Below, piece by piece: positions 1 through 22,760 of a stretch of DNA of 58,675 nt. The position numbers and the translations under genes were made by a program. The DNA comes from a virus, in IMG/VR virus record IMGVR_UViG_3300024346_007222, positions 1 to 58,675 of that record; one strand, given 5' to 3'. Under the pieces are notes generated by a model. The model saw only the letters and a list, made by a program, of their open reading frames with translations. It had not been told where the DNA came from and searched no databases. The stretch's first letter is position 1. Each line of letters starts with the position of its first letter.

Positions 1-1539
1 TATTTAGGTAACGAAACATTTGGAAGTGCAGAATTTAGTGTAACGCCTGCAGGAGTTTTAAAAGCAACTTCTGGAACTATTGGTGGATGGACATTGGGTG
101 CAACTACTTTAACAGGTGGAGCAGCAACATTAGATAGTACAGGTGCGATTTCAATTGGTACTACAAATAATGTTTTTAAAGCAGATACTAATGGAATATG
201 GTTAGGAAATGCTATATTTGGTAATGCCCCATTTAGGGTAACTAATACCGGTGTATTATATGCAACCGGTGCTGATATTGCGGGTAAAATTACAGCCACT
301 ACCGGTAATATTGGTGGTTGGATTGTAACTTCTACAAGTATACGAGATTCAACTGAAAAATTAAGATTAAACGCAGCAAGACCTGCTATTGAAATTTATG
401 AAGGTAGTGCATTAAGGGTAGATATAAGTAACGCATCAACATTGAGTAGTTTAAGTGCTGGCAGTGTGACAATAAGCCCAACTTCAGTAACGAATTGGAA
501 TAGTCAACAAAAATATGCTAGTAACAATTCTCAATATATTACACAATTGACTGCTAATATGGACCCAACATATTTAGAATGGACTCCGGGTTCATCACCT
601 AGTTTTACTACAAGTGCTGGGACTACTGGAATTTATTCCATAAGTACAAATTTATGGCATGCTGCACTTTCATATTATAGTGTATATTTAGAACCGGGAG
701 CACAACCATTTGGCGGAGGTAATCCTTATATAAATTATGTACAACACTATTACACCATAGGGATTTCCGTTAGAGCAGGTGGTACTGGTATAGGTAATGA
801 AGTTTTAGACATATCAAAAGCAGTAAATTTTTCACAGGTATTTGGATATGGTAACACTATATTAGAAGAGCAATTTGGTTGGGCTTCAGGTGATGCTTTT
901 GGTACTTTAACCGGGACTATTACATTATTACCAAGCACAACATATTATTTTGTACCTTATATTAAAAATGGAGTGACTGCAGTCTATCGCGATTCAGGAA
1001 CAGTTTCAACTTTTGATGTTAATGTCACCTATGACACCCCAAAAATAAGTACTATATCGGTATCACAACAAGTATCAAAAACTGAATTAGTTGCGGGTGG
1101 TTTCCAAGTTGTAGCAAGTACTGATAGATATCTTAAAGTTGAAAGAAATGAGGCAAATACTAATTTCGTTGCGGTTGGTGGCGGTATTACTGCTACCGGA
1201 AATATAACTGCATTCGCTACTTCAGATAAAAGATTAAAAGAAAATATTATACCAATAGGAAATGCACTTAATAAAATAGAAAAATTAGATGGTGTAGAAT
1301 TTGATTGGACAGATGAATATATTCAAAAAGAAAGTGGTGGAAAGGGTGAAGATAATTACTTTATAAGAAAACACGATGTCGGTTTAATTGCTCAACAAGT
1401 AGAAAGTATTTTACCAGAAGTTGTTGCAACAAGAGACGATGGCTATCTTGCTATTAAATACGAAAAAATTGTACCTTTATTAGTTGAGTGTATTAAGGAA
1501 TTGAAAAAAGAAATTAACGAGTTAAAAGAGAATAAGTAA
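1..1539 (+). CDS. Tail fibre/spike protein, C-terminal part, with S74 self-cleaving chaperone domain (5' truncated)
   Basis: The frame is open from the first base, so the gene begins upstream of the window and 512 codons are visible. The N-terminal part holds Gly/Thr/Ser-rich beta repeats with recurring IGGW motifs, typical of trimeric fibre shafts. The last ~110 residues match the peptidase S74 intramolecular chaperone. Ser408 (counted from base 1) in TSDKRLKENI and Lys413 sit five residues apart, like the Ser/Lys dyad of the phage endosialidase chaperone. They are followed by the conserved HDVGLIAQQVESILPEVV stretch and a C-terminal coiled coil. By family knowledge this domain assembles the fibre trimer, then cuts itself off just before the serine. 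The next gene overlaps by one base (TAATG). The host receptor and any enzymatic head domain lie outside the window. Confidence 0.88.
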   Translation, partial: YLGNETFGSAEFSVTPAGVLKATSGTIGGWTLGATTLTGGAATLDSTGAISIGTTNNVFKADTNGIWLGNAIFGNAPFRVTNTGVLYATGADIAGKITATTGNIGGWIVTSTSIRDSTEKLRLNAARPAIEIYEGSALRVDISNASTLSSLSAGSVTISPTSVTNWNSQQKYASNNSQYITQLTANMDPTYLEWTPGSSPSFTTSAGTTGIYSISTNLWHAALSYYSVYLEPGAQPFGGGNPYINYVQHYYTIGISVRAGGTGIGNEVLDISKAVNFSQVFGYGNTILEEQFGWASGDAFGTLTGTITLLPSTTYYFVPYIKNGVTAVYRDSGTVSTFDVNVTYDTPKISTISVSQQVSKTELVAGGFQVVASTDRYLKVERNEANTNFVAVGGGITATGNITAFATSDKRLKENIIPIGNALNKIEKLDGVEFDWTDEYIQKESGGKGEDNYFIRKHDVGLIAQQVESILPEVVATRDDGYLAIKYEKIVPLLVECIKELKKEINELKENK

Positions 1540-3242
1540 TGGCACTATTACAAACAACAGGTCCTATTTCGCTGAATGATTTAAATACCAATCGGAATAT
1601 TCCATCTGGTACTCAAATAGATTTAGATACTGCTGCTATTGCTTATGGTATTCCTGCTAAACCACATGGGATGGATGAGTTTTATGGTAAAGGTCAAGGT
1701 GCACCAAGTCCAACTCCTGCTACAACACCGGCACCAACTCCTGCACCAACTCCGGCTCCAACACCTGCAGTTACTCCGGCACCAACTCCGGCACCAACTC
1801 CTGCACCAACTCCGGCTCCAACTCCAGCATCAACTACATTCACAGGATTTGTAAGTATAGAAAGTGATATAGCTGCATGTGCGGGGGGAGAGTATGGACT
1901 TGTTACAATTACTGTTTATGGAACAACCTTATGTAATGCAACATCAGTACGTGCATTAATATCTGAAGAATATGGTAATGTTTATAGTGATTTTACTCAT
2001 AATCAGACATTCTATATAGCTCGTCTAAGTAATGTTAGACACTTCCAACGTAATGGTTCTGCACAAACAGGTACACCACAAGCCGTTTGTGATTTTTGTC
2101 CAACCCCAACACCGACAGTTACTCCGGCACCAACTCCGGCTCCGAGTGTTACTCCGGCTCCAACACCTGCAGTTACTCCGGCACCAACTCCGGCTCCGAA
2201 TGTTACTCCGGCTCCAACACCTGCTCCAAACGTTACTCCTTCGGTAACTCCAGCATTTACTCCGGCGGTTACACCTGCTCCAAACGTTACTCCAGCAGCG
2301 TATTATTTATCAATGACACTTAATGTGGGTTGTTTTGGTTATGCAGGTAGTGGATATATTGATATAGTGTCAGTAAGTGGTGGTTCTGGAAATTATGTTT
2401 ATCATATTGGTAATCAAGCAATTAACTTCAATGACCCTAACGCATATAATTTAAATCAAAGTGCATATAATTTAGCAAATGGAAGTTATTATGTTGCTAC
2501 ATATGATAGTTCGTATAATATATCCGTAGTTCAAGTTAGAAATATAAATTGTGCTGCAGCACCTAGTCCAACCCCAACACCGACAGTTACTCCGGCACCA
2601 ACTCCGGCTCCGAGTGTTACTCCTGCTTATGTGGCTCCAAGTGTACCTACTTATTATCCACCTATTACAGATTTATATAGTTGTAATAATGGTGTATGTG
2701 AAATTGATAATCTAAATGGTATATACACGAGTTTATTAGAATGTCAGAATTCAGGTTGTGAAAGTCCGTGTTTAGCATACGGAAGTGAAATTTTAATGAG
2801 TGATGGTTCTACTAAATTAATTGAAAATTTAGAAATGGGAGATGTGGTAATGAGTCTTTCTATAATAGGATTAGATAAAGATATAGAACAAAATTGGGAA
2901 ACGTTTACAACTAACGATTTACAATATTCAAAATCAACTTCAGTAGTTAATAGATTAAATCGTGGTTCATATACTTGGTATTATTCTATAAATAATGGTT
3001 TACTAAAGGTAACATATGAACATCCAATTTTGGTTAAGAGAAATGGTGAAGTAATATTCTTACAAATGAAAAATTTAATAGAAGGTGATTTGTTATTAAA
3101 TAATAATGATGAATTCGTATTAATTGAAACTATTGATATAATAAACGAAAGTTTAAATACAGTTTCAATTGGAATCGAAGAAGATGATGTTTATTTTGGT
3201 AATGGAATATTAGTACACAATATAAGGGAAGAAAAGATATAA
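1539..3242 (+). CDS. Pro/Thr/Ala-repeat structural protein with C-terminal Hint (intein-like) domain
   Basis: This is a 567-residue protein. The N-terminus ([11 protein letters not shown], then IAYGIPA...MDEFYGKG) resembles the start of many phage fibre-associated proteins. Three low-complexity tracts of TPAP/TPTP/SVTP repeats (residues ~55-99, 188-254, 342-375) separate two small beta-like, Cys-containing domains (~100-187 and 255-340). Residues 411-561 look like a Hint fold. Cys411 opens block A ([20 protein letters not shown]), T492-x-x-H495 is block B (TYEH), and the domain ends in GNGILVHN with His560-Asn561. The residue after Asn561 is Ile, not Cys/Ser/Thr, so normal intein splicing is unlikely; cleavage or ligation in the manner of bacterial intein-like domains fits better. 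The Pro-rich tracts are candidate substrates for the prolyl-hydroxylase-like gene that starts four bases downstream. Confidence 0.85.
1701..1835 (+). repeat. Pro/Thr/Ala codon repeat tract 1
   Basis: Tandem copies of the hexamer family CCAACTCC(G/T)GCA encode (TPAP)n, residues ~55-99 of the gene starting at 1539. Related tracts at about 2100-2300 and 2562-2663 encode [12 protein letters not shown] and APNVTP variants. The AP/TP/SP dipeptide spacing is the type that plant prolyl hydroxylases and hydroxyproline glycosyltransferases act on (family knowledge). Overlapping frames through these tracts are shadows. Confidence 0.85.
2769..3221 (+). other. Hint/bacterial intein-like autoprocessing domain
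   Basis: This is the sub-domain of the preceding CDS from Cys411 to Asn561 (~151 residues, mini-intein size with no room for a homing endonuclease). Visible signatures are the N-terminal Cys, a TxxH block B motif, and a C-terminal His-Asn pair in an ILVHN context. Only six residues follow Asn561, so Asn cyclisation would release just a hexapeptide. The main effect of chemistry at Cys411 would be to free the upstream fibre segment or attach it to a nucleophile. Confidence 0.75.
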
Positions 3243-3245
3243 GTT

Positions 3246-4445
3246 ATGATAATACGACAAATTGATAATTTTTTATCCAAAGATGAATGTGCTGATTTAA
3301 TAAAACAAATTGATACAAATAACCAACCAAGTACTGTGGTGGGTAGTTATACTGGTATACTACATCATGCTAGAACAAGCTCAACTTCTAATATTAAAGA
3401 AGAACAATTTATTACACAAAAAATAAAACAAAAAGTTACAAAAGAGGTAGGATTACCTGCTAATCATATTGAAAATATTCAAGGACAAGTATATAAAAAA
3501 GGACAATTTTTTAGACAACATCACGATTGGTTTGATGAACATTCATATGAACAACATTGCTTACATTCAGGTAATAGATGTTGGACGGTTATGATTTATT
3601 TAAATGAGGATGTAGTTGGAGGTGAAACTAAATTTCATAATTTAGATTTAAAGTTTACACCAAAAATAGGTACTGCAATTGTGTGGCAAAATATGGTTGA
3701 TGGGATACCAACTCCAGATTCATTACACGAAGGTTGTGATGTAATAGATGGTTCTAAATATATTATAACAATCTGGGTTAGAGAAAAGCCGTGGAATTCA
3801 ATATTAGATTTAAAATTATACAATGAAAAATATCCAAAAATAAACCCAATAAAAAATAAATTTTCTACAAAAGATAGTTTACCAAAATTAAGTGAAAATG
3901 GGTTTTTATTAACCAAATTATCTACTGAGGATTTGGAATTGGTGAATATAATGTATGAATCGGTGAAGAATAATAAAGTAGAAGAAATATTTGACCATAA
4001 AAGTAGTATTATATTGGGTAATAACAATACATCTGATATAATGCCCTTAGATACGATTCCAGAGTTGAGAAGTAATTTACATAAAAAGTTAGAATCAATA
4101 CATAGTAATTGGTGTGGTGAAGAAATAGAACCAACTTACATTTATGGTATACGAAGTTATAATAAAGGTGCCAAATTAGCATCACATTACGATAAAATTG
4201 AAACACATCATATCTCATCTATTATCATGATAGATAAAAATTTAAACGATGGTAATGATTGGGGATTACAAATAAAAGACCATAGTGGAAACACTCATAC
4301 CGTTTACATGCAACCGGGAGATATATTATTATATGAATCCGCTGTTTGTTTACATGGGAGAAATGATGAATTTGAAGGTGAATATTATAGAAATATGTAT
4401 GTTCATTATAAATTAAAAAATTGGGAATATGAAAGTAACACCTAA
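3246..4445 (+). CDS. Two-domain 2-oxoglutarate/Fe(II) oxygenase, prolyl-4-hydroxylase-like
   Basis: This is a 399-residue protein with two oxygenase units. Domain 1 (~1-180) has the prolyl-4-hydroxylase signature: iron ligands H92-x-D94 in FRQHHDW, the core RCWTVMIYLNEDVVGGETKF, distal ligand H161, and the 2-oxoglutarate-binding K171 in LHEGCDVIDGSKY. Domain 2 (~290-399) has a second apparent site: H314-x-D316 (SHYDK), a PGDILLYES strand, then H370 and R372 (CLHGR). The enzyme would use O2 and 2-oxoglutarate to hydroxylate proline or a similar side chain in the cytoplasm. It lies directly between the Pro-rich structural gene and a run of glycosyltransferases, so that protein is the obvious substrate candidate. 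The two domains probably differ in substrate, because domain 2 has an Arg where domain 1 has a Lys. Confidence 0.85.
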   Translation: MIIRQIDNFLSKDECADLIKQIDTNNQPSTVVGSYTGILHHARTSSTSNIKEEQFITQKIKQKVTKEVGLPANHIENIQGQVYKKGQFFRQHHDWFDEHSYEQHCLHSGNRCWTVMIYLNEDVVGGETKFHNLDLKFTPKIGTAIVWQNMVDGIPTPDSLHEGCDVIDGSKYIITIWVREKPWNSILDLKLYNEKYPKINPIKNKFSTKDSLPKLSENGFLLTKLSTEDLELVNIMYESVKNNKVEEIFDHKSSIILGNNNTSDIMPLDTIPELRSNLHKKLESIHSNWCGEEIEPTYIYGIRSYNKGAKLASHYDKIETHHISSIIMIDKNLNDGNDWGLQIKDHSGNTHTVYMQPGDILLYESAVCLHGRNDEFEGEYYRNMYVHYKLKNWEYESNT

Positions 4446-5079
4446 TACAAGATTAATTACATTTGGAGACTCCTGGACACAAGGACATGGAGTTGAATTG
4501 GATATTCACTATAAAGAAGTTATTTCACCAAATGAATTTACAAATAAATTAAGAAATTCAAATGGTTGGCCAAGACATTTAGCTACATTATTAGATTTAC
4601 CATTTGTAAATTGTGGTTGGTGTAATTTTAGTAATAAAAACATCCTTGAAGAAATAAAAAAAAATATAGAATATTTACATAAAGATGATATTATTATTAT
4701 TATGCTTAGTTATCCATATAGAGATAGTGGAGACCCGATAAATGATATAAAAACTATAACAACCCTATTATCAGAATATAATTATTTTTTATTTAATTCA
4801 TTTGCAAAAACTTTTATGACTGAATTAAATTTAAATACAAATGATATTGATTTAAGTAGATTTATTGATAAAGAATTAACTATGAGTAGCTTATTAATAG
4901 ATTATGAAAAACAAAAAAATATTTCTGTTTGGGAATATAATTTTAGATACCCATATACTTGGCAAAATACTGATGGTGGGGATACTCATCCAAATTATTT
5001 AGGTTATAAAATAATTGCTAATAAAATATACGAATTATTAAAAAAATATGATAACGATTCCCGTAGCAGTATCAAATAA
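4429..5079 (+). CDS. SGNH/GDSL-family hydrolase
   Basis: This is a 216-residue protein. Block I is ITFGDSWTQGHG with Ser15 as candidate nucleophile. The C-terminal block has GGDTHPNYLGYKIIA with the Asp-x-x-His pair of the SGNH triad. Members are esterases, often sugar or peptidoglycan O-acetyl esterases. The start at 4429 overlaps the oxygenase gene by 17 bases, so translation is probably coupled. Within a glycan-modification run, O-acyl removal or transfer on a sugar is the likeliest role, but the substrate is not visible. A second, divergent SGNH-type gene lies at 47231. Confidence 0.72.
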   Translation: MKVTPNTRLITFGDSWTQGHGVELDIHYKEVISPNEFTNKLRNSNGWPRHLATLLDLPFVNCGWCNFSNKNILEEIKKNIEYLHKDDIIIIMLSYPYRDSGDPINDIKTITTLLSEYNYFLFNSFAKTFMTELNLNTNDIDLSRFIDKELTMSSLLIDYEKQKNISVWEYNFRYPYTWQNTDGGDTHPNYLGYKIIANKIYELLKKYDNDSRSSIK

Positions 5080-5881
5080 ATCATTTCAATGGCAAAGTAG
5101 TTTATTTCAATATGCACAAAAAAATGTATATGGAAATCTTGCCCTTTGGAATTCAATTGTATTAATTGCTGATAGGAATTCTCATGGGAAAATAATTAAA
5201 GATGTTGATTGGAATCTAAGTATACCATATAAAATTGTAGATGGAATACATACTATATTACCCCTATCAGATGAACATCCGTATTTCTCAGCAGGAAATT
5301 TATTTTTTGCAATTAAACAAATATTAAATGATTTAGATGATAATGAATGTATTTGTATTATTGATTGTGATGTAATTCCATTTAAAAAATATGATGGAAT
5401 ATTACCTAATGATAATGAAGTTATAACCTGCAATAAATATGAAGATTGGCATATGAGATGTAGTCGACCTGATAAGGAAAATTATAGAATAGTTGAACCA
5501 TATTTAAGACACGATACACATGAGTATATGGATGGTGGGTTTGTTCCTATTATTATAAAAGTTAACACTTTAAAAAGAATAGTAGATGAAGTTATTGAAA
5601 CCGGCATTGATATTGCTAGAAATCATTTAGATTCTTCATTTGGTTGGTGGCAACAAATGTGGTCTTTTCAAATTGCATGTCATAATAATCATATAAAATG
5701 TATAGGACAGGATAATACTTATTTTCCAAGTATAAATGAGTTTGATAAAGAAAAACACTACTTTGCACATTATTCGTGTGACCCCTTATTTAAAAAATCA
5801 ACATTCCCAAATCATAATATAGCTGGGTTTCCACATAATAATTTATTTTACGATACAATAAGGGATTGGTATTATAGATGA
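5048..5881 (+). CDS. GT-A-like glycosyltransferase resembling plant hydroxyproline O-arabinosyltransferases (GT95/GT96-like)
   Basis: This is a 277-residue protein. It starts with a beta strand and SFQWQSSLFQYAQKNV, which resembles the SQWQ-x-R-V-MYYWYK block recalled from plant hydroxyproline O-arabinosyltransferases. CIIDCDVIPF (D106-x-D108) is the metal-binding DxD equivalent. Residues 198-211 (FGWWQQMWSFQIAC) match the plant FGW-x-x-EMY-x-YAIA block. HYFAHYSCD (238-245) matches the plant IIHYTYGCD block. Position and spacing of all four agree. Adjacency to a prolyl hydroxylase-like gene and a Pro-rich substrate supports transfer of a sugar to hydroxyproline. The family resemblance is from memory and weaker than for GT60 next door; a generic GT-A enzyme is the alternative. 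Confidence 0.6.
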   Translation: MITIPVAVSNKSFQWQSSLFQYAQKNVYGNLALWNSIVLIADRNSHGKIIKDVDWNLSIPYKIVDGIHTILPLSDEHPYFSAGNLFFAIKQILNDLDDNECICIIDCDVIPFKKYDGILPNDNEVITCNKYEDWHMRCSRPDKENYRIVEPYLRHDTHEYMDGGFVPIIIKVNTLKRIVDEVIETGIDIARNHLDSSFGWWQQMWSFQIACHNNHIKCIGQDNTYFPSINEFDKEKHYFAHYSCDPLFKKSTFPNHNIAGFPHNNLFYDTIRDWYYR

Positions 5882-6663
5882 TATACGTTTTTATACCTTG
5901 CCGATTAGATAAGGAAGTAATTCCTACTTGTTTTGATTTGATATATAAAGCATCAAATCCAAATAATATCAAAATTATTGTCTTTAATCAAGATAGACAA
6001 TCTGATATGTTTTTTCAGGATTTATTTCCATCTCAAGTTACATTAATAAATGTTGATTATCAAAAATTTTCAAATATTTGTTGGATACGTTCCCTTGCTA
6101 ACTACTTTATAGAACCGGAATTTAAATATTTTTTATCAATTGATAGTCATATGAGATTTGATAAAAATTGGGATACGATATTAATTAATGCCCTATTACC
6201 AAATTCTATTTTATCTGCGTACCCACCTGCATATCCATTATATGGGACATTTGAAAAAAATAAATCACATCATACAAATGATTGGAATAGAGAAAAAATA
6301 GGTGGATTTCCATTTGTAATGAAACTAAATGATGATGGTGAAAATTATTGTAAATCAACTATTGCAGCAGGATTTCATTTTACTACAATTGATTGGTTAG
6401 AAAAGGTTGGGTATGATAAATTATTATGTTGGAAATATGAAGAAATAGATTTAACATATCGGAGTATTGGTATGGGATATTCAGTTATTAATTATAAACA
6501 TACCCCATTATATCATTTATATGATAGAAGTAATCGAAAACAAGTTGACCACGCTGAAATATTTCTTTCTGATTGTAATGAGTGGATGAAATCAAAATTA
6601 AATGATGAATATACGAAAAAAATAAATGAGTATTATAACATAAATTTTTTCGATTTTTTATAA
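5878..6663 (+). CDS. GT60-type (Skp1 hydroxyproline GlcNAc-transferase-like) glycosyltransferase
   Basis: This is a 261-residue protein. The region FKYFLSIDSHMRFDKNWD (82-99) carries the D-S-H-M-R-F motif characteristic of the Pfam GlcNAc (GT60) family. Further family features follow in order: AAGFHFT (163-169), CWKYEEIDLTYRSIGMGY (acidic EE pair 188-189), and YHLYDRSNR near the C-terminus. The best-known member is Dictyostelium Gnt1, which adds GlcNAc to a hydroxyproline on Skp1 made by a prolyl-4-hydroxylase; other members act elsewhere. The start overlaps the previous stop by four bases (ATGA). With the upstream oxygenase and the HPAT-like gene, this suggests hydroxyproline glycosylation. 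Confidence 0.75.
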   Translation: MIYVFIPCRLDKEVIPTCFDLIYKASNPNNIKIIVFNQDRQSDMFFQDLFPSQVTLINVDYQKFSNICWIRSLANYFIEPEFKYFLSIDSHMRFDKNWDTILINALLPNSILSAYPPAYPLYGTFEKNKSHHTNDWNREKIGGFPFVMKLNDDGENYCKSTIAAGFHFTTIDWLEKVGYDKLLCWKYEEIDLTYRSIGMGYSVINYKHTPLYHLYDRSNRKQVDHAEIFLSDCNEWMKSKLNDEYTKKINEYYNINFFDFL

Positions 6664-6670
6664 TTTTATA

Positions 6671-6678
6671 TATTTATA
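6671..6678 (+). promoter_or_regulatory. TATTTATA promoter-like element
   Basis: This is an octamer in an AT-only run, ending seven bases before the start codon at 6685. The same octamer or a one-base variant recurs at the head of many transcription units in the window. Here its closeness to the ATG would give an almost leaderless message if it is a -10 element. Confidence 0.4.
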
Positions 6679-6684
6679 TATAAT

Positions 6685-7722
6685 ATGAGTATAAAGGTTT
6701 TAGTTACAACTGGCTGTGGTAATACTGTTATGGGTGGTGCCGATATATGGACTAATTATTTTTTAGAATTAGTTTGGCCTTCTCTACCTGTCAAACGGGA
6801 TTGGAGGTTACTCATAGATTCCAAAAGACCCGCTTCATTTGAATCAAAATACTTACCGAAAGGATTGGTTCATCATTTTCATTACGATGACCCTGAAAAG
6901 ACTAGAATGTGGTTAGATGAGTGTGAGGAAATTCATGTTTTACATCCACATTATCATTTAAGACCACATATTTGGCATTTTGAAGATAAATTTAAAACTG
7001 TCTTTGTTCACGCATATGCTAGAGAGATGGATGCAACAATACAAGCAATACCGGAACTAAAAAGGTTACAATATAATACAGGCGTTGATTCAGAGTTTTA
7101 TGATGAGTATTTAGCAACATTTAATCGTAGAATTTGGGTAGGTAATAATACTACCACTATGATTGATGAACATCCAAACTATACCTACAACGTTCCAAAT
7201 TTTTATGAGTTTAAAAATAACTTACCACTCACCACTCACGTTGATAATGGTAAAATTGGGTTTGCTTCTCGTATTGAATCGAGAAAATGTGTACATTGGT
7301 TAAACGACCATACCGGATATATCCTAACAAATCAGTTTGATTTACAAAACCTTAAAGATAGTAGTACTTACTCATTAAAAGGAATGGAAGTTTTCCAATG
7401 GGATGTCAACCATCATCATTTTTTTATGATGAAGAATTTTGGTATATTTCATGCCGCATATTTTAAAGAACCATTTGGATATTCAATATTTCAAGCAGTA
7501 GATTATGGTAAGTTACCAATAATACATAAAGATTGGGCACCGGAGGTTGAATACAAATATAGGGTTTCAACTAAAAATGAATTTGATGAGTGTGTTAAAC
7601 AAATCCTCAAAGATTCATACGAAGAAAGAGTTGCAAACGTAAAAAATCTTAAAGATTATATGATACAATTTGATAATAAAGATGCATGGATTGATAAAAT
7701 CCGTACAGCAATTTTAGGATAA
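6685..7722 (+). CDS. GT-B fold glycosyltransferase (GT4-like)
   Basis: This is a 345-residue protein. It has an N-terminal Rossmann-like half (IKVLVTTGCGNTVMGGADIW, with a Gly-rich acceptor loop). The C-terminal half has KIGFASRIESRKCVHWL, equivalent to the K-R nucleotide-sugar binding segment of GT4 enzymes. It also has FHAAYFKEPFGYSIFQAVDYGKLPII, equivalent to the EPFG...E-A motif, except that Gln-Ala replaces Glu-Ala. Donor and acceptor cannot be read from sequence. It follows the GT60 gene after a 21-base AT-rich gap with its own promoter-like box. Confidence 0.8.
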   Translation: MSIKVLVTTGCGNTVMGGADIWTNYFLELVWPSLPVKRDWRLLIDSKRPASFESKYLPKGLVHHFHYDDPEKTRMWLDECEEIHVLHPHYHLRPHIWHFEDKFKTVFVHAYAREMDATIQAIPELKRLQYNTGVDSEFYDEYLATFNRRIWVGNNTTTMIDEHPNYTYNVPNFYEFKNNLPLTTHVDNGKIGFASRIESRKCVHWLNDHTGYILTNQFDLQNLKDSSTYSLKGMEVFQWDVNHHHFFMMKNFGIFHAAYFKEPFGYSIFQAVDYGKLPIIHKDWAPEVEYKYRVSTKNEFDECVKQILKDSYEERVANVKNLKDYMIQFDNKDAWIDKIRTAILG

Positions 7723-7912
7723 TTCCAAATATTTATTTTTATATATTTTTATATATTTATATACGTTTGGGAAAAAGTTGCATACTTATAATAAAGGGGG
7801 TAGGGGGATAAGCTACTAAGCTATTACACTATCACTTATACTATCTTAATTAACTTATATTACTATTAAGCTAATAGCATATTTCTAGCATTTCATTCAC
7901 ATTATTTAATGT
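7723..7912 (+). promoter_or_regulatory. 190-base intergenic leader with AT box, G-rich patch and small hairpin
   Basis: No ORF is seen. It contains repeated ATATTTATTTTTATATA boxes (TATTTATA at 7754-7761), a TTGGG...TATAAT-like stretch at about 7766-7790, and two GGGGG runs at 7796-7800 and 7803-7807. It also has a perfect hairpin CTATTA-AGC-TAATAG (7863-7877). The distance from the AT box to the next start (7913) is 152 bases, much longer than elsewhere, suggesting a long 5' leader or an untranslated small RNA. Confidence 0.4.
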
Positions 7913-9546: not shown

Positions 9547-9554
9547 AAAAAATA

Positions 9555-9562: not shown

Positions 9563-9586
9563 TATACAAACAAAAAACGAAGAGTT

Positions 9587-9838: not shown

Positions 9839-9840
9839 TA

Positions 9841-14922: not shown

Positions 14923-16331
14923 CAAGAACAAATATTAATTTTGTATATGAGTTTAAAACTCCAAATGGATTTTTACCATTGGGTTATAACAAATATACAT
15001 TTCCAGTTAATGCGTTTGATAGTATAGAAACTATTAGAGAAGACGATTATGTCATTATAATTAATTCATCTAACGAACCGGCAGTTTATCATAAAAGAAA
15101 CAGTAGTTATCCAATTAAATTATATGAAAGAGGTAGAAATCTAAATCATATAATGGTTAATGATTTAAATGATGAAAATATAAATAAAGATGAAATTTAT
15201 TTATTATGTTTTGAATCATTTTCAACTCAAGTTTTATTTGAGTACTATGGAAACGAAAGTAATAAAATTGAAAATATGATATCTTCAAAATTATTAAAAC
15301 TTGTTAAAGAATATCCAAATTTTAAAATAATGTTTGTTGATATATGGGAGGGTTCATATGAACATAATATTGAATTTTTTAAAAAAATAAACGAATTTTT
15401 AGATAGGAACTCAATATCAGATACAAATAAAATTATAATAAGCACAGTCAATGGTTTAATTGAAAAATTTGATAATAAAATATTAAATCCAACAGGTATT
15501 AACCGAATTACTACATTTTGTAACGATAGTTATATAAACGAATCCGGTAAGTTTATCTCAGAATTAAGGGCATCAAAAAATAAAGAAATAGTTTCAAAAG
15601 AATATATCTATTCATTACAATCTGAATTAAAATTAGAACCAAAACCTAAACGATTCTTAATGTATAATAGAAACACATCAAGATTACACCGTCCCTGGTT
15701 TGTAAAATTATTATTTGAAAACAATTTATTAGATAGTGGGTATGTTTCTTTAATTAAAAATGAAGAGTTTGAAGAATATATTAAAAAATCTGATGAATCA
15801 GTATCAGAATTAGATTTAACTAAATCAGATTTTAATGATTTAAAGACAACATATAAAGAATACTATCCATTAACAATTGATGAAGAAGATGGTGATACGA
15901 TTGCTTGGTTTCATAATTATTTAAGTAGAAAAAAAGAATATGAAGAAACTTTTTTTTCAATTGTAGGTGAAACTAACGCAGAAAAGAATTATTTATTTAT
16001 AACAGAAAAGACTACAAAACCAATTATGAATTTACATCCATTTTTTATTGTAGGTTCACCTTATACTTTAAAATATTTACAAGGGTTAGGATTTAAAACT
16101 TTTTCTGATTTTTGGGATGAAAGTTATGATACTGAACCCAATTTTAAATTAAGATGTAATATGATTATAAACGAAGTTAAAAAACTTTGTAATAAATCAC
16201 AAGAAGAAATGATTGAAATAATTAAAAGTATGGAAGATATATTAATTCATAATAAAAAATTATTACATTCTTTTTATACTAATAATAGAAATGAAAATAT
16301 GTTTAGAAATAGTTTAAATGATATAATATGA
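14904..16331 (+). CDS. GT-B-like putative glycosyltransferase, paralogue A of three
   Basis: This is a 475-residue protein. The C-terminal third has FFSIVGET, then LFITEKTTKPIMNLHPFFIV and GFKTFSDFWDESYD. The arrangement (E-T, then T/S-EK-x-x-KP-I, then HPF) resembles the nucleotide-sugar binding half of fucosyltransferase/exostosin-type GT-B enzymes (YxTEKxxxA pattern). Residues ~250-270 (KPKRFLMYNRNTSRLHRPW) look like the inter-domain strand with basic residues. The donor is unknown. Two diverged paralogues lie at 18480 and 23298, with an identical 39-base stretch. Confidence 0.6.
   Translation: MDGRQLTRTNINFVYEFKTPNGFLPLGYNKYTFPVNAFDSIETIREDDYVIIINSSNEPAVYHKRNSSYPIKLYERGRNLNHIMVNDLNDENINKDEIYLLCFESFSTQVLFEYYGNESNKIENMISSKLLKLVKEYPNFKIMFVDIWEGSYEHNIEFFKKINEFLDRNSISDTNKIIISTVNGLIEKFDNKILNPTGINRITTFCNDSYINESGKFISELRASKNKEIVSKEYIYSLQSELKLEPKPKRFLMYNRNTSRLHRPWFVKLLFENNLLDSGYVSLIKNEEFEEYIKKSDESVSELDLTKSDFNDLKTTYKEYYPLTIDEEDGDTIAWFHNYLSRKKEYEETFFSIVGETNAEKNYLFITEKTTKPIMNLHPFFIVGSPYTLKYLQGLGFKTFSDFWDESYDTEPNFKLRCNMIINEVKKLCNKSQEEMIEIIKSMEDILIHNKKLLHSFYTNNRNENMFRNSLNDII
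16092..16130 (+). repeat. 39-base identical stretch shared by three paralogues (copy 1)
   Basis: It encodes the core of FKTFSDFWDESYD. The same 39 bases occur at 19404-19442 and 24486-24524, although the surrounding genes are strongly diverged. Identity at synonymous positions suggests recent exchange or gene conversion. Confidence 0.85.
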
Positions 16332-17299
16332 ATATTTTAATTACAGGTGGTGCAGGTTATTTAGGTTCAGTTTTAATTGAACGACTATTTAATAATGGTG
16401 GTGTTACAAAACTTACAGTTTACGATAATTTAATGTATAATCAAACATCATTAATACATTATAGCTGGAGAAAGAATTTTGAATTCGTTTATGGTGATGT
16501 TAGAGACCAGGAAAAACTTTCAAAATATGTAGATGAGGCAGATGTAATAATTCCTCTAGCAGCAATTGTAGGATTTCCTGCGTGTGATAGAGATAAAGAC
16601 CTTGCAACTGCAGTAAATTATACTCATGTAAAATTTATTTGTGATAGAATAAAAGATAGTAATAAAAAGATTATATACCCCAACACAAATAGTGGGTATG
16701 GGATAGGAGAGAATGGTGAGTGTACTGAAGAGAGTCCACTAAACCCCATTTCTCATTATGGTGTAACCAAAGTTAATGCTGAGAGAGAAGTATTAAACTA
16801 TGGTGGTATTTCAATTAGACTGGCCACCGTCTTTGGTTCATCACCACGTATGAGAATGGACTTACTTGTTAATGAATTTGTTTACAAAGCATTAACTGAT
16901 AAGTACATCACCATTTTTGAGAAAAATTTTATAAGAAACTATATTCATATTAGAGATGTTGCAAATACATTTGTGTATATGATAGAAAATTATGAAAAAT
17001 TAAAAGGAGACGTATTTAATGTAGGTCTTTCAAATGCTAATTTATCAAAGCAACAATTGGTAGAAAAAATTAAAGAATATGTACCTGATTTCGCAATCAC
17101 ATATTCGGATTATTATGAAGACCCCGATAAAAGAGATTATATTGTTTCTAATGCTAAATTAGAATCATTAGGTTGGACTCCACAATATAGTTTAGATGAT
17201 GGAATCGTAGAATTAATAAAAACATATAAAATTTTAATCCAAGACTTATCTTCAAAGTATAGAAATGGATTCCCTTTAAGTTATGGCACAAGGACGTAG
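16328..17299 (+). CDS. NAD-dependent sugar epimerase/dehydratase (extended SDR)
   Basis: This is a 323-residue protein of normal size for extended SDR enzymes. The NAD-binding motif is ITGGAGYLG near the N-terminus. The active-site region is YPNTNSGYGIGENGECTEESP, followed by SHYGVTKVNAE (Y-x-x-x-K). An RLATVFG strand and the NYIHIRDVANTFVYMIEN substrate block follow. It most resembles nucleotide-sugar 4-epimerases or 4,6-dehydratase-type enzymes. It overlaps neighbours by 4 and 17 bases. It would feed a modified NDP-sugar to the cluster's transferases. Confidence 0.85.
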   Translation: MNILITGGAGYLGSVLIERLFNNGGVTKLTVYDNLMYNQTSLIHYSWRKNFEFVYGDVRDQEKLSKYVDEADVIIPLAAIVGFPACDRDKDLATAVNYTHVKFICDRIKDSNKKIIYPNTNSGYGIGENGECTEESPLNPISHYGVTKVNAEREVLNYGGISIRLATVFGSSPRMRMDLLVNEFVYKALTDKYITIFEKNFIRNYIHIRDVANTFVYMIENYEKLKGDVFNVGLSNANLSKQQLVEKIKEYVPDFAITYSDYYEDPDKRDYIVSNAKLESLGWTPQYSLDDGIVELIKTYKILIQDLSSKYRNGFPLSYGTRT

Positions 17300-17867
17300 T
17301 ATATTTTACAAAGAAAGAGGGTGGAATGATTTTCACTACTATAATGGGTTGGTATTACCAGAGGTAAAAATCGTACAACCATCCACTTACTATGAGTATA
17401 GAGGTTCAATCTCTACAACGTATCACTCAGAGTATTACGACCGTTTGTTGCCCGCCGCTGAACGCAACAATGGGTTAGAATTTAAGCATGATAGGTTTTC
17501 AAAATCAAAGGTAGGGGTATTAAGAGGAATGCACTATGATGAAAAGACTTGGAAATTAGTAAGTTGTCTGCATGGTCGTATATATTTGGTTGTAATGGAT
17601 GTCCGACCGAACTCACCAACCTATGGTAAATGGGAATCTTTTATAATTTCTCCGGAAACAGGTACACAAGTCTTAATTCCACCAATGTTTGCTAATGGCC
17701 ATTATGTGATGGAGGATGATTCTATCTTTTTTTATAAAATGGCGTATGAAGGTGAATACAACGATGAAAATAAACAAAAAACAATAGTATATAACGATAA
17801 ACGATTTAATGTTGAATGGCCCGTAGCACAACCAATACTTTCAAATAGAGATAAAAATGGAAATTAA
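17283..17867 (+). CDS. RmlC-like dTDP-4-dehydrorhamnose 3,5-epimerase family protein
   Basis: This is a 194-residue cupin-type protein. Key RmlC motifs are FKHDRFSKSKVGVLRGMHYD (His84 as the base in RGMH), KLVSCLHGRIYLVVMDVRPNSPTYGKW, VLIPPMFANGHYVMED and FFYKMAYEGEYN (Tyr/Lys of the active site). The length fits the family (~180-190). RmlC acts on 4-keto-6-deoxy sugars, so a matching dehydratase should exist, perhaps encoded by the host or elsewhere in the phage. It lies between an SDR gene and a thiamine-diphosphate enzyme in a tightly overlapped run. Confidence 0.85.
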   Translation: MAQGRSIFYKERGWNDFHYYNGLVLPEVKIVQPSTYYEYRGSISTTYHSEYYDRLLPAAERNNGLEFKHDRFSKSKVGVLRGMHYDEKTWKLVSCLHGRIYLVVMDVRPNSPTYGKWESFIISPETGTQVLIPPMFANGHYVMEDDSIFFYKMAYEGEYNDENKQKTIVYNDKRFNVEWPVAQPILSNRDKNGN

Positions 17868-18495
17868 AAATTTAGATTATCATGAAGACCGCTGGCCCGA
17901 TGGTAATCTTACAAAAGAAGAACTCATTGGATTTGAAGATGAAGTCATTCAACATTGGGAAAATGGAGATATCCACGGCCCAATACACTTATCAAATGGA
18001 AATGAGAATGAGTTAATAGAAATATTTAAAAAAGTAGGTATAGATGATTGGGTGTTTTCCACTTGGAGGTCTCATTATCACGCCCTTTTACATGGAATTG
18101 ATAAATCCTGGTTAAAGGATGAGATTTTAGATGGTCGAAGTATAACCATTGTCAATAAAAAATGTAATTTTTACTCATCAGCAATTGTAACAGGTATACT
18201 ACCTATTGCATTGGGTGTTGCTAAAGCAATTAAACTAAAAGGTGAAGATAAAAAAGTATGGTGTTTTATTGGTGATATGACTTTTGAGACTGGAATTTTT
18301 TATGAGGTACATAAATACGCTAGAAATCACAACTTACCTCTTTATTTTGTAGTAGAGGATAACGAAGTTTCTACAAATACACCGACATCACACACTTGGG
18401 GAGAAATTCAGAGAGAAATACCAGAAGATGTCATCTATTATAAATATAAATCAAAATATCCGCATTATGGAACAGGAAAATGGGTAGTCTTTTAA
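17857..18495 (+). CDS. Thiamine-diphosphate-dependent E1-alpha/transketolase-N-like subunit
   Basis: This is a 212-residue protein. WVFSTWRSHYHALLHG (66-80) matches the R-x-H-x-x-x-x-x-G segment of E1-alpha subunits. GDMTFETGIFYEVHKYARN then LYFVVEDN (G139-D140 to N169) is the GD...N thiamine-diphosphate/Mg motif at normal spacing. It is shorter than true E1-alpha (~330-360), so this is a minimal cofactor-binding subunit. The partner carrying the activating Glu is probably the gene at 22760, about 4.3 kb downstream. The pair may add or remove a two-carbon unit on a sugar; the reaction is inferred only. Confidence 0.75.
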   Translation: MEIKNLDYHEDRWPDGNLTKEELIGFEDEVIQHWENGDIHGPIHLSNGNENELIEIFKKVGIDDWVFSTWRSHYHALLHGIDKSWLKDEILDGRSITIVNKKCNFYSSAIVTGILPIALGVAKAIKLKGEDKKVWCFIGDMTFETGIFYEVHKYARNHNLPLYFVVEDNEVSTNTPTSHTWGEIQREIPEDVIYYKYKSKYPHYGTGKWVVF

Positions 18496-19661
18496 ACTTT
18501 GTATTCTTAAAGGATACACACGAATATAATGGAGATGAGACCTATGCAATGCAGGGGCCTATATTTTACTATTTAATAAAAAATGAATACTCATACACAT
18601 TAAATGGTCAACTAAAACCTGGTTATAAAAATTTATTATTAATAGAATCTAGTCATAAATTGCAAAGTCTATTAAATATACCAAATGATGTATATGATTT
18701 TATAAAAAATAATGATATAAAATTATTATTTACAAGTATACCAGACCCGTGTAATAGACCCACCTATGATTTAGGAATTAGCTATATTCAAACAAAATTA
18801 TCTAATACAAAATATTATATAATAGATAGTAATAGAAGATTGGAAGGTATATTATCATTTGATTTTTTCTTAGAAGAATCTATTTGGAATAGAAACCAAT
18901 TTTTTGGTAAAGAAATAACTGATTTAGGATATGTGAGTGAAGAAATTCAATTAAATGAGTTAGATAGTTATAGAAATAAAAAATTTATTTGTTTTAATAG
19001 GGCATTAGATAAAGAACATAGAATATCTTTGTTAAATGAATATCTTACAGGTAATTACTCTGATTCATATTTTACATTTTTATTAAAAACAGAAGGTTTT
19101 GCTAGAATTTATGATAATAAACTAAATAATAATCAAAAACAACAAATAGATGTTGATTTTTTTAATAGCAAACTTCCAATTGAATTAGATACACATTCTA
19201 TATCAGATAAATCCCACTTTAGGGTAAATAATACATTTAAAAAAGAATTATTTTTAAATTCATGTATAAATTTAGTAACAGAATCCTCATTTCAACAAAA
19301 TGAATTATTTGTTTCTGAAAAAATATTAAAACCAATACTAAATTATCAACCATTTATAGTTTTTGCAGGATATGGATATTTAAAACATTTAAAAACTTAT
19401 GGTTTTAAAACTTTTTCTGATTTTTGGGATGAAAGTTATGATGAAATAGTAAATCCAGAAGAAAGATTTTTTGCTTTACTAAAATTAGTAAGAATGTTGA
19501 ATAAAAAAAGTATTGATGAATTAAATGAGTTATATAAAAACTTAAAACATATATGTATATATAATAAACATATTTGGGATAATTTGGAAATTAATACTTT
19601 TGAAAAAATATTAAAAAATATAGAAAACGAATGGATACAGAAAATAAAGAAGATATTTTAA
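18480..19661 (+). CDS. GT-B-like putative glycosyltransferase, paralogue B of three
   Basis: This is a 393-residue protein, shorter than paralogues A (475) and C (482) mainly in the N-terminal half. The C-terminal block is NLVTESSFQQNELFVSEK, then ILKPILNYQPFIVFAGYGYL and GFKTFSDFWDESYDEI, aligning with the others. FICFNRALDKEHRI (~167-180) is equivalent to the FLMYNRN segment of A and the ALMLNRRLRPHR segment of C. The position usually held by His-Pro-Phe is Gln-Pro-Phe here. Overlaps of 16 and 31 bases with neighbours imply coupled translation. Confidence 0.58.
   Translation: MGSLLNFVFLKDTHEYNGDETYAMQGPIFYYLIKNEYSYTLNGQLKPGYKNLLLIESSHKLQSLLNIPNDVYDFIKNNDIKLLFTSIPDPCNRPTYDLGISYIQTKLSNTKYYIIDSNRRLEGILSFDFFLEESIWNRNQFFGKEITDLGYVSEEIQLNELDSYRNKKFICFNRALDKEHRISLLNEYLTGNYSDSYFTFLLKTEGFARIYDNKLNNNQKQQIDVDFFNSKLPIELDTHSISDKSHFRVNNTFKKELFLNSCINLVTESSFQQNELFVSEKILKPILNYQPFIVFAGYGYLKHLKTYGFKTFSDFWDESYDEIVNPEERFFALLKLVRMLNKKSIDELNELYKNLKHICIYNKHIWDNLEINTFEKILKNIENEWIQKIKKIF
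19404..19442 (+). repeat. 39-base identical stretch shared by three paralogues (copy 2)
   Basis: Identical to 16092-16130 and 24486-24524, within paralogue B. Confidence 0.85.
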
Positions 19662-20773
19662 AAAAATATATTTGTATTCAACCGTTTAAACATGTTGAGT
19701 TTTTTCATCAAGAAATAACTCTTTGTTGCCCAACTTGGTTAGATACTAAAATAAAATTTGATAAAAAAGATGGTGAATATGATTATGATGTTTGGAATTC
19801 CGAATTAGTACAAGATATACGAAAATCTATATTAGATGGAACATATTCATATTGTAATAAAACTACGTGTCCTCATTTAAGTACTCTTATTAATACTCAA
19901 ATTCCCAGTGGGTATTTTATTAAAAAAGATTATTTACCATATATTGATACCGAAGGGTATTGGATTGAAAATAAAACATATAATGAACAAACTCCGGCAT
20001 CTATAAATTTTACATATGATAGAAGCTGTAATTTAAAATGTCCATCATGTAGAGTTGATACCATAATGGCTAAACCAGATGAGGTATTAGAAATAGATAA
20101 AATAACTAATTTTATAAAAAGTAAGTATTCAAAAAATGTAAGAAAACTTGCTATTACTGGAAGTGGAGACCCATTTGCATCAAAATCATTTAGAAAATTT
20201 TTAATAGAATTTGAACCAAAATTATGGCCAAATTTAAATGAAATATATATTACTACAAATGGTATTTTATTTAATAAAGAAAATTGGAATTTAATAAAAA
20301 ATGTTCAACCATATATACAAATGGTAGAAATATCAATGGATGCCGCAACAAAAGATACCTATGAAAATATAGTTAGATTAAATGGCAAATGGGATGTATT
20401 AATGGAAAATTTAGTGTTCATTTCACAAATTAATACTATTAATACTTTACGATGTTCATTTGTTGTTCAAAATAATAATTATAAAGAAATGTTAGCTTTT
20501 GCAAAATTAATTTATGAAAAAACAATTGAAAGAACTGAAAATCAAACACACCCACATTCCACTTGGGTATATTTTGCTAAAATAGCACAATGGCCGCATA
20601 TAACAGATGCTAAATTTAAAGAGTTATCAGTATGGGAACCCGACCATGCAAATTATAATGATTTTGTAGAACAAGTAAATGAGTTATATGAGTATGAAAA
20701 AAGTTTTGACAATATGGGTTTTGGTGGTATAAATATAATGAGTAATTTTACTGATTTAATAATTCAAAAATAA
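19631..20773 (+). CDS. Radical SAM protein with N-terminal SPASM-like cluster region
   Basis: This is a 380-residue protein. The radical SAM motif is CNLKCPSC (C133, C137, C140), with KLAITGSGDPFAS as the GGEP-equivalent and MVEISMDAAT as a later core strand. The first ~85 residues show ICIQPFKHVEF, CC (32-33), a Trp, ILDGTYSYC and CPH. This is the pattern of an auxiliary-cluster SPASM/twitch domain (C-x-PF...CC...W...I-x-x-G...C...C), again placed before the core. Enzymes of this type modify peptides or sugars. It overlaps paralogue B by 31 bases and ends before a short AT-only gap. Confidence 0.82.
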   Translation: MDTENKEDILKKYICIQPFKHVEFFHQEITLCCPTWLDTKIKFDKKDGEYDYDVWNSELVQDIRKSILDGTYSYCNKTTCPHLSTLINTQIPSGYFIKKDYLPYIDTEGYWIENKTYNEQTPASINFTYDRSCNLKCPSCRVDTIMAKPDEVLEIDKITNFIKSKYSKNVRKLAITGSGDPFASKSFRKFLIEFEPKLWPNLNEIYITTNGILFNKENWNLIKNVQPYIQMVEISMDAATKDTYENIVRLNGKWDVLMENLVFISQINTINTLRCSFVVQNNNYKEMLAFAKLIYEKTIERTENQTHPHSTWVYFAKIAQWPHITDAKFKELSVWEPDHANYNDFVEQVNELYEYEKSFDNMGFGGINIMSNFTDLIIQK

Positions 20774-20797
20774 TATATATATATAAAACAACACAAG

Positions 20798-21763
20798 ATG
20801 AATGGTAAAAAGGTTTTGATAACAGGTGCCAACGGATTAGTTGGTAATTATATGGTTGATAAATGTATCCAAAGAGGAGCATTTGTAACTGCAGTGGATA
20901 TTCACACTCCAGAAAATCAATTAGAAAAATACAATGTGGATAACTATCAGTTTATTAAAGCTGATTTACGTGAATTCAAAAATTGTAAAAGAGTAGTTGA
21001 AGGACAGGATATAATTTTTCATATTGCAGGCGTAAAGGGTTCTCCAAAAAGAGCAGCAGAACAACCCGCAGATTATTTTGTACCAATGTTGCAGTTTAAC
21101 ACCAATATGATGGAAGCTGCACGTTTAGAAGACGTAGAATGGTATGTTTACACATCAACAGTTGGAGTATACCAACCGGCGGAAGTATTTTATGAAGATG
21201 ATGTTTGGAAAACCTTCCCATCGGAAAAAGATAAATACGCCGGATGGGCTAAAAGACTTGGAGAACTCCAAGCAGAAGTATATTCAGTATCGTACAATTG
21301 GAATCGGGCATCGATTGTAAGACCGGCAAATATTTATGGTAGACATGATAACTTTAGTCCAGAATCTACCGTCATCGCATCCCTAATCAAAAGATTATTC
21401 GGTGAGAAAGAACATCCATTAGTATGTTGGGGAGATGGTTCTCCAATTAGAGATTTTATCTACGCGGGAGATGTTGCTGATGGTATTATTCAGGCATATG
21501 AACAAAAATTAACACAACCAATAAATTTAGGTAGTGGAACGGGTGTAACAATTAAAGAACTTGCAGAAACTCTTGTAGAAATATACGAAGAAATGTATGG
21601 AGAAAAAGTTGAAATAAATTGGGACCCAACAAAACCAAATGGTGATGAGAAACGATTGATGAGTACTGAAAGGGCAGAATCGTTTGGAATTAAACAAAAA
21701 ATATCCTTAAAGACAGGATTAAGACATACAATTGATTATTATTTAAACGAATACAAAAAATAG
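20798..21763 (+). CDS. NAD-dependent nucleotide-sugar epimerase (extended SDR)
   Basis: This is a 321-residue protein. The NAD motif is VLITGANGLVG. The catalytic part is VYTSTVGVYQPAEVFYEDD, then DKYAGWAKRLGE (Y-x-x-x-K). IVRPANIYGRHDNFSPES and the PIRDFIYAGDVADGI substrate block follow. It resembles GDP-fucose synthase/UDP-glucose 4-epimerase relatives. Upstream (20771-20797) is a TATATATATATAAAA run that may be a promoter. It is followed four bases later by a related SDR. Confidence 0.85.
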   Translation: MNGKKVLITGANGLVGNYMVDKCIQRGAFVTAVDIHTPENQLEKYNVDNYQFIKADLREFKNCKRVVEGQDIIFHIAGVKGSPKRAAEQPADYFVPMLQFNTNMMEAARLEDVEWYVYTSTVGVYQPAEVFYEDDVWKTFPSEKDKYAGWAKRLGELQAEVYSVSYNWNRASIVRPANIYGRHDNFSPESTVIASLIKRLFGEKEHPLVCWGDGSPIRDFIYAGDVADGIIQAYEQKLTQPINLGSGTGVTIKELAETLVEIYEEMYGEKVEINWDPTKPNGDEKRLMSTERAESFGIKQKISLKTGLRHTIDYYLNEYKK

Positions 21764-21767
21764 AAAT

Positions 21768-22760
21768 ATGAAAAAAACAGACAAAATTTTAGTAACTGGT
21801 GCAAGTGGATTTATTGGTTCTAGATTATTAAAAAGTTTATACGAAGCAGGTTATACAAATTTGAGAGCAACTGCAAATTCCAGAAAATTAAGAAATGATT
21901 TTGAAGGTTCTGAAAATATAGAATTTATCAAAGGAGATTTACGAAATGATGGATTTTGTAAACAACTCACCAGAGAAATTGATGTCATATTCCATTGTGC
22001 AGCAAATACATCTAATGCATTAGATACTAAATTTAATCCCCTATTACATGTTACTCCAAACATTGAAATGAATGTTAACTTAATGGAACAATCGTGGATT
22101 AATTCAGTAAAGAAATTTATTTTTATATCATCAAATACAACATATCCTGATATGGGAGATGTACCTTGTACCGAAGATATGGAAATTCAAACCCCATCAA
22201 TTGTACCAGTATACAAAGCAGTTGGTTGGATGAAGCGTTATTGTGAAACACTTTGTGATTTCTTTTCAAATCAAATTCATAATCCAATGCAATGTATTAT
22301 CATTAGACCTTCAAATGCGTTTGGACCAAATGATAAATTTGATTACGAAAAATGTCACGTTACCCCTGCAAATATTAGAAAGGTAGCAGATAATCTAAAC
22401 CCAATACCAGTATGGGGTGATGGAACTGAAGTTAGAGATGTTATTCACGTAGATGATATGGTTAGTGGGTTTATATGTGTAGCAGAAAATGTTCATACAC
22501 ATGATGTATATAATGTATCATATGGTGAGGGGTATACTGTAAATGAAGTTTTAGATACGATTAAAGAGATAGAAGGTAATACTAACCCAATTGAGTATGT
22601 AAATAACAAAGCTCCTATGATTCCCGTTAGATTACTTGATAACACTAAATTAAAAGCATTAGGTTGGAAACCAAAATACAATTTACGAAGTGGATTAACC
22701 GATGCCCTTAAATGGTATAAAGAAAACAAAAATCAATTTAATCCAAATTCAAAACCATAA
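21768..22760 (+). CDS. GDP-L-fucose synthase-like SDR epimerase/reductase
   Basis: This is a 330-residue protein. The NAD motif is ILVTGASGFIGSRLL. FISSNTTYPDMGDVPCTEDM is followed by VPVYKAVGWMKRYCE with the Y-x-x-x-x-G-x-x-K-like catalytic segment. The segment IIIRPSNAFGPNDKFDYEKCHVTPANIRKV matches the LRPTNLYGPNDNFD..SHVIPALI block of GDP-fucose synthases well. VWGDGTEVRDVIHVDDM is the usual substrate loop. It would make GDP-fucose or a related 6-deoxy sugar. The stop overlaps the next start by one base (TAATG). Confidence 0.82.
   Translation: MKKTDKILVTGASGFIGSRLLKSLYEAGYTNLRATANSRKLRNDFEGSENIEFIKGDLRNDGFCKQLTREIDVIFHCAANTSNALDTKFNPLLHVTPNIEMNVNLMEQSWINSVKKFIFISSNTTYPDMGDVPCTEDMEIQTPSIVPVYKAVGWMKRYCETLCDFFSNQIHNPMQCIIIRPSNAFGPNDKFDYEKCHVTPANIRKVADNLNPIPVWGDGTEVRDVIHVDDMVSGFICVAENVHTHDVYNVSYGEGYTVNEVLDTIKEIEGNTNPIEYVNNKAPMIPVRLLDNTKLKALGWKPKYNLRSGLTDALKWYKENKNQFNPNSKP

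Follow-up and report, generated by a model that had tools for sequence, protein, structure and literature searches.

We analyzed a single virus record of IMG/VR, IMGVR_UViG_3300024346_007222, over its full 58,675 bases (the window; the record may be a fragment). It carries a gene cassette that probably serves to hydroxylate and glycosylate X-Pro tracts in the phage's own particle proteins, with hydroxyproline (Hyp) as the probable site of sugar attachment. Sequence evidence for this reading comes from enzyme families, active-site residues, synteny and, within one virion protein family, an association of X-Pro tracts with prolyl 4-hydroxylases (P4Hs). In the window, the cassette order is Pro-rich protein, two-domain oxygenase, SGNH hydrolase, a glycosyltransferase of the hydroxyproline O-arabinosyltransferase (HPAT) family and a GT60-family glycosyltransferase. 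A tail-fiber-like gene lies directly upstream and assigns the cassette to a structural module; together these are six plus-strand genes (94-6663), all abutting or overlapping. The original prediction had named the five cassette genes, and profile searches agreed with it on positions and families, save that the SGNH match was below the Pfam cut-off (Table 1).

Pro-rich genes adjoin two-domain prolyl 4-hydroxylases

Alignment-based scans of viral contigs yielded 35 loci with GT60, 74 with HPAT and 144 with a two-domain P4H, of which 80 were covered. The 75 distinct two-domain P4Hs formed 20 clusters at 70% identity. Genes were called Pro-rich if they encoded at least 9 prolines in 30 residues, and genes four or more places away were taken as background. 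The gene immediately before the two-domain P4H was Pro-rich in 55 of 71 cases, compared with 18 of 297 in the background (Fisher p = 5e-35, for P4H loci that were gathered by similarity and are not a random sample). Because kinship among the sequences inflates this test, we counted clusters instead, and 13 of the 20 P4H clusters had a Pro-rich gene directly upstream (binomial p = 8e-12). Co-occurrence with Pro-rich genes in other phages, which the original prediction had proposed to survey, is borne out by both counts.

The order Pro-rich gene, two-domain P4H, transferases recurs across lineages that are unrelated: it is seen in the window, in loci L015, L240 and L002, and in many more. Depending on the cluster, the P4H is followed by HPAT, GT60, both, a GT60-HPAT fusion, or a protein O-fucosyltransferase (O-FucT, PF10250). 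L002, which contains relatives at 41% identity, has a Pro-rich gene, a two-domain P4H and one protein in which GT60 and HPAT are fused. In L298, another transferase family stands in place of HPAT, GT60 and O-FucT. The O-FucT branch of the cassette consists of L259, L260 and L282, and a carbamoyltransferase follows in two of the three tested cases (L259 and L282). Synechococcus phage S-SCSM1 (L318) has a cultured cousin of this branch at positions 4117-12215, with a protein O-fucosyltransferase between two 2-oxoglutarate (2OG) oxygenases, then a carbamoyltransferase and GDP-fucose genes; this stretch contains no X-Pro tract. Among 50,697 records of cultured phages, we detected no HPAT, no full two-domain P4H and no whole cassette, and the window had no nucleotide match to cultured phages.

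X-Pro tracts within one virion protein family

Many cassettes have a large protein upstream that belongs by its match (E < 1e-200) to phrog_14478, virion structural proteins, as do the Pro-rich partners in L193 and L259 (E < 1e-200). Relatives of this type occur in Cellulophaga, Flavobacterium and Tenacibaculum phages. The sample of relatives without P4H comprised eight distinct proteins, of which seven come from cultured phages and the eighth from an uncultured but complete genome; a search of their records with the P4H model gave no match. X-Pro runs were present in 41 of 42 family members with a P4H in view, and in none of the eight sampled relatives without one. Counted by cluster, the figures are 9 of 9 versus 0 of 6 (p = 2e-4). 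In L096, at first sight an exception, the tract came before the enzyme was seen. The L096 fragment ended in a tract protein, and the remainder of its contig holds another Pro-rich gene and an HPAT-like one, together with a P4H (E = 1.6e-193). The tract-bearing fragment correctly predicted a P4H farther along the contig.

Phages commonly carry 2OG oxygenases; in bacteria, EF-Tu is a target of P4Hs, and the two-domain Tpa1/OGFOD1 enzymes modify a ribosomal protein. The phage oxygenase could similarly be an ordinary auxiliary enzyme whose target is DNA or a protein of the host, such as EF-Tu or a ribosomal protein, next to an incidental Pro-rich neighbor. The adjacency statistics, the virion-protein control and the prediction made from L096 make this very improbable, as does the Pro-rich partner that adjoins the P4H in bacteria too (see below).

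The two-domain oxygenase

In the PDB, every top match of the N-domain was a prolyl 4-hydroxylase (B. anthracis, E = 4e-21; Chlamydomonas P4H1, E = 1.7e-13). Residues H92xD94, H161 and K171 reproduce the P4H signature HxD...H...K, with the lysine ten residues after the distal histidine. By family, the N-domain is a canonical prolyl 4-hydroxylase, with predicted activity. The C-domain adopts an oxygenase fold as well and has a separate triad (H314xD316, H370), with R372. Both Fe-binding triads are intact in all 75 distinct two-domain relatives, and both domains are therefore probably active. In Tpa1/OGFOD1, by contrast, the second oxygenase domain is inactive. In the AlphaFold2 model, the domains were confident within themselves (pLDDT 91), while their arrangement was not (pTM 0.55). 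Foldseek matches of the oxygenase include algal P4H1 bound to (Ser-Pro)5 (3gze). The P4H structures and the conserved triads confirm the P4H-like two-domain enzyme of the original prediction. A lone C-type oxygenase domain was seen beside HPAT and a TPTPTP gene in L173, L174 and L181.

Glycosyltransferases

PF11397, the Pfam family of GT60 enzymes, is matched by all 23 GT60 relatives, in which D89, H91, R93 and F94 are invariant, and the GT60 motif recognized earlier holds up as a family assignment. A search of the GT60 protein against PDB sequences gave no match. Many large phage contigs carry GT60 doublets without P4H (L023-L032, L034, L037, L039-L043, L047), and a lone GT60 is found in the jumbo phages XacN1 and RAS14 (L007, L008).

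For the HPAT-family protein, PF23452 is matched by 24 of 31 phage members at E <= 0.001, and D106 and D108 are invariant. The AlphaFold2 model has a pLDDT of 95 and a pTM of 0.93.

The acceptor residue

In GT60 lineages, Thr and Ser make up about 46-93% of the X positions before Pro. In several HPAT-only and O-FucT-only lineages they account for 8-30%, and the tracts are long VPVPVP or APAP runs with Pro in every second place (the lineages in this comparison are not independent). Proline is the constant residue in the tracts poor in Thr and Ser, and the composition therefore suggests Hyp as the sugar acceptor. In the Toxoplasma Skp1 route, which is cytosolic, a P4H acts before a GT60 enzyme, and the hydroxylase is needed first (PMC6939170).

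The main alternative is that the tract protein is hydroxylated and glycosylated with the sugars on Thr or Ser, and that hydroxylation serves separately for backbone stiffness. GT60 also includes the polypeptide alpha-GlcNAc transferase of T. cruzi (PMC6939170), which puts GlcNAc on mucin Thr (PMC3769586). GT95, the family of the plant HPATs, has a relative in GT96, whose enzymes galactosylate Ser (PMC8012813), and membership in the HPAT family alone therefore does not settle the acceptor. The richness of GT60-lineage tracts in Thr and Ser fits such an acceptor, as does GT60 near TP-rich genes without P4H in L061, L082 and L147. However, there are HPAT-only and O-FucT-only lineages whose VPVPVP or APAP tracts have few such residues, and the transferases are closely linked to a P4H. 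We regard sugars on Thr or Ser as unlikely, while giving them more weight than any other alternative. Attachment to Hyp, as the original prediction had it, remains the likely case from tract composition, with Thr/Ser as its standing competitor.

The Pro-rich protein and its tracts

The Pro-rich protein of the window (567 residues, with 64 Pro and 64 Thr) has three tracts of alternating X-Pro (TP, AP, SP) of the TPAP/VTP type. Both this protein and the Pro-rich partners of other cassettes match phrog_15511. Beside the same kind of enzyme, the tract is kept but spelled variously, as TPAP, VPVP, SPSP or PPPVTPPPAT. The tracts are repetitive and variable in length, as meaningless simple DNA repeat expansions would be. 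Nevertheless, their Pro codons are mixed (24 CCA, 19 CCG and 11 CCT in the window), a reading as DNA slippage was rejected on this mixture of synonymous codons within tracts, and with the variously spelled but retained tract it leaves repeat expansion hardly credible. A collagen reading was also rejected, as the tracts are TPAP/VTP and contain no Gly-X-Y. The contiguous Ser-Pro(3-5) motif of plant extensins is not present in the window tracts; some relatives, L036 and L046 among them, have contiguous prolines. In L036, L038, L046, L045 and L048, GT60 and a single oxygenase lie near extensin-like PPPVTPPPAT or TPTPTP proteins, without HPAT.

Residues 411-567 form a Hint domain with an N-terminal Cys411, a TYEH motif and a C-terminal HN; its matches to PF05203 and PF07591 are both below cut-off. 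Elsewhere among the fetched loci, this domain was found only in L109. From its sequence, self-cleavage of the Pro-rich protein is possible, and the domain may release or ligate a stalk. The match of the window protein to phrog_38766 ("virion structural protein") lies over the Hint domain only. The description of this protein as a fiber, made in the original prediction, is plausible for the window protein, given the tail-fiber neighbor upstream and the virion structural family of partners elsewhere.

A chromosomal counterpart in Acidimicrobiia

A scan of genome contigs identified related two-domain P4Hs in metagenome-assembled genomes (MAGs) of Acidimicrobiia, for which binning errors are possible. 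These P4Hs have HPAT, GT60 and an HPr-kinase-like gene as neighbors, along with a protein that combines a PqqD-like N-domain and a Tat signal with a Pro/Thr-rich tail. Pro/Thr-rich Tat-signal proteins adjoin the P4H in G054, G056 and G114. In the last, on a contig of 141 kb, the tail is (TPAP)n and the gene lies between GT60 and P4H. On six MAG contigs (L342-L346, L365), P4H-HPAT-GT60 sets lie by exported PqqD-like/Tat/Pro-Thr proteins, with a leader logic like that of ribosomally synthesized and post-translationally modified peptides (RiPPs).

Among 248 genomes of the order, 4 have a strong P4H, 3 have HPAT (all with P4H) and 5 have GT60 over cut-off, including all 4 with P4H. The co-occurrence with P4H gives hypergeometric p values of 1.6e-6 for HPAT and 3e-8 for GT60, in statistics that ignore kinship. 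A first HPAT scan of bacterial genomes, with patterns that were probably too phage-derived, found none; the Pfam model then matched P4H-bearing genomes.

These data also bear on the idea that the P4H acts on the tract while the transferases are mere neighbors with another target, for example a host surface polysaccharide. The window is rich in other sugar genes (GT7, epimerases, radical SAM), and the lone and doubled GT60 genes without P4H described above fit such an idea as well. Yet the transferases that recur beside P4H fall into HPAT, GT60 and O-FucT, families that all take their names from protein O-glycosylation, GT60 and HPAT can be fused, and the enzymes co-occur in bacterial genomes. 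A separate target for the transferases is therefore improbable in our view.

Observations against the proposed reading

Several observations weigh against own-particle modification by the cassette. A directly upstream Pro-rich gene is missing in 7 of the 20 P4H clusters, of which L198, L262 and L279 have one nearby. The L017 lineage has P4H, HPAT and GT60 with no X-Pro tract nearby; the sole Pro-rich gene of its contig (G005), with IPNPIPKIPNP repeats, is at 87229-87996, at a distance of about 31 kb from the cassette. Of the X-Pro tracts that a pattern search picked up in phages, most are without P4H (a match in 3 of 35 whole contigs), and the tract alone is therefore not diagnostic of P4H. 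Some contigs contain HPAT with no P4H in view, and bacterial N-domains differ around the distal residues. The PF23452 match covers only part of the HPAT domain (residues 140-251 only), and Foldseek sets the model loosely among general GT-A enzymes (TM 0.45-0.55), by which HPAT identity is neither proven nor refuted. The resemblance of this GT-A protein to HPATs, claimed in the original prediction, stands as a Pfam match above cut-off over that segment.

Even so, hydroxylation and glycosylation by the phage of a Pro-rich protein of its own, as proposed, has genomic support from synteny, the GT60-HPAT fusion, the active sites, the lack of tracts in P4H-less relatives, the L096 prediction and the bacterial set.

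Neighboring genes and host

In its major capsid protein, the window shares about 52% identity with Flavobacterium phage immuto, and a Bacteroidota host is therefore likely; Microcystis phage Mel-JY01 is about equal in score. The SGNH/GDSL hydrolase, whose gene is also kept in L015 and L262, is possibly a glycan O-acyl esterase. The genes at 7913-12731 may extend the cassette glycan or serve another glycan, and those at 16328-23308 possibly synthesize donor sugars. Positions 24933-30338 encode a protein of 1801 residues with a cytidylyltransferase-like N-terminal domain and a remainder without match.

Table 1. Features of the cassette and its surroundings in the window.
Feature	Positions	Strand	Evidence
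Tail-fiber-like protein, C-terminal S74 chaperone domain	94..1539	+	PF13884 E 1e-15; phrog_8215 baseplate/tail fiber E 6e-42
Pro-rich protein, putative cassette substrate	1539..3242	+	Translation, tract map; phrog_15511 E 5e-8
X-Pro tract 1	1698..1832	+	Tract map; mixed synonymous codons
X-Pro tract 2	2100..2297 (start about)	+	Tract map
X-Pro tract 3	2550..2654	+	Tract map
Hint (hedgehog/intein-like) domain of Pro-rich protein	2769..3239	+	PF05203 E 0.0016, PF07591 E 0.009, phrog_38766 E 3e-9
Two-domain 2OG-Fe(II) oxygenase, P4H N-domain and second oxygenase C-domain	3246..4445	+	PF13640 E 1.4e-17
SGNH/GDSL hydrolase	4429..5079	+	PF13472 E 6e-5, 24.1 bits vs cut-off 32.9 (below)
HPAT-family glycosyltransferase, GT-A fold, D106xD108	5048..5881	+	PF23452 39.5 bits vs cut-off 23.9
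GT60-family glycosyltransferase, D89-S-H91 motif	5878..6663	+	PF11397 76.3 bits vs cut-off 21
Conserved next gene, no family match; same-position gene in L015 starts alike	6685..7722	+	
Methyltransferase	7913	+	PF13578 E 1e-9
GT2-like gene	8686	+	PF13704 E 6e-4
Two GT7 galactosyltransferases, each with fused LamG (lectin) domain	9841 and 11274, to 12731	+	PF13733/PF02709/PF13385
Sugar-nucleotide genes, region	16328..23308	+	Pfam; phrog_540 E 9e-61
Epimerases	16328, 20798, 21768	+	Pfam
dTDP-sugar isomerase	17283	+	Pfam
Two thiamine-enzyme halves	17857, 22760	+	Pfam
Radical SAM gene	19631	+	Pfam

Comparison with known systems

In its predicted working, the cassette is a combination of the Skp1 and extensin routes, and a member of neither, as its substrate fits neither. 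With the Skp1 route of Dictyostelium and Toxoplasma (P4H, then the GT60 enzyme Gnt1) it shares a 2OG P4H, a GT60 and a cytosolic setting. Unlike that route, it belongs to a virus, has no Skp1 but a Pro-rich, virion-type protein as neighbor, offers repeated X-Pro tracts and not one proline, and adds HPAT or O-FucT and a second oxygenase domain. With plant Hyp-O-arabinosylation of extensins and peptide hormones (P4H, then HPAT, GT95) it shares a P4H, a PF23452 enzyme and a Pro-rich substrate, whereas the phage tracts are mostly alternating X-Pro and not Ser-Pro4, there is no Golgi, and the HPAT match is distant.

Among viruses, chlorovirus PBCV-1 has its own P4H as the cassette does, but is a virus of algae, and we know of no linked HPAT or GT60 in it. 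Mimivirus L230 is a collagen lysyl hydroxylase and glucosyltransferase, which hydroxylates and then glycosylates the virus's own structural protein; it differs from the phage cassette in its use of lysine and collagen Gly-X-Y, in its enzymes and in being from a virus of amoebae. T. cruzi mucin alpha-GlcNAc on Thr shares GT60 and a Thr-rich acceptor, but comes from a eukaryote and involves no hydroxylase. For the P4H of PBCV-1, evidence for hydroxyproline in viral proteins is cited in PMC9301287 (Eriksson 1999). In mycobacteriophages, too, particle proteins are glycosylated, but with the glycans at the C-termini of capsid and tail-tube proteins (Freeman 2023, cited in PMC12619734), where neither a P4H nor an X-Pro tract is mentioned.

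Proposed mechanism and significance

From these data we infer the tract as substrate and hydroxyproline as acceptor, and likewise the sugars, the order of steps and a benefit. The Pro-rich protein would be made in the host cytoplasm, where the P4H N-domain, with O2 and 2-oxoglutarate, would convert tract prolines to 4-hydroxyproline and the second oxygenase domain would oxidize the same tract. Cytoplasmic transferases would then add sugars. In the window phage these would be HPAT and GT60; in relatives, a fusion of the two, either one on its own, or a protein O-fucosyltransferase. Other genes nearby may trim the glycan, extend it or supply it. On the particle, the decorated tracts would form stiff stalks or linkers with a coat of sugar.

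More broadly, we lean, with less assurance than for the phage itself, towards hydroxyproline-linked glycosylation being native to prokaryotes and phages. It would be a modular system of two-domain P4H and HPAT, GT60 or O-FucT that decorates X-Pro tracts in the particles of many aquatic phages and in exported proteins with PqqD-like leaders and Tat signals of some Actinomycetota; the eukaryotic Skp1 and HPAT enzymes may share ancestry with it.

Viral P4Hs have been listed as auxiliary metabolic genes, and a survey concluded that their viral use "remains cryptic" (PMC9301287). For a large group of them, the cassette gives a testable answer, modification of the virus's own particle. As the original prediction had supposed for phages, no such system for phages or bacteria was found in the open-access literature, and if true, this would be the first hydroxyproline-linked glycosylation in either. 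It would also be a new form of coat chemistry for phages, with a bearing on adsorption and host defense, and the cassette offers enzymes of the bacterial cytoplasm for plant-type hydroxyproline glycoproteins.

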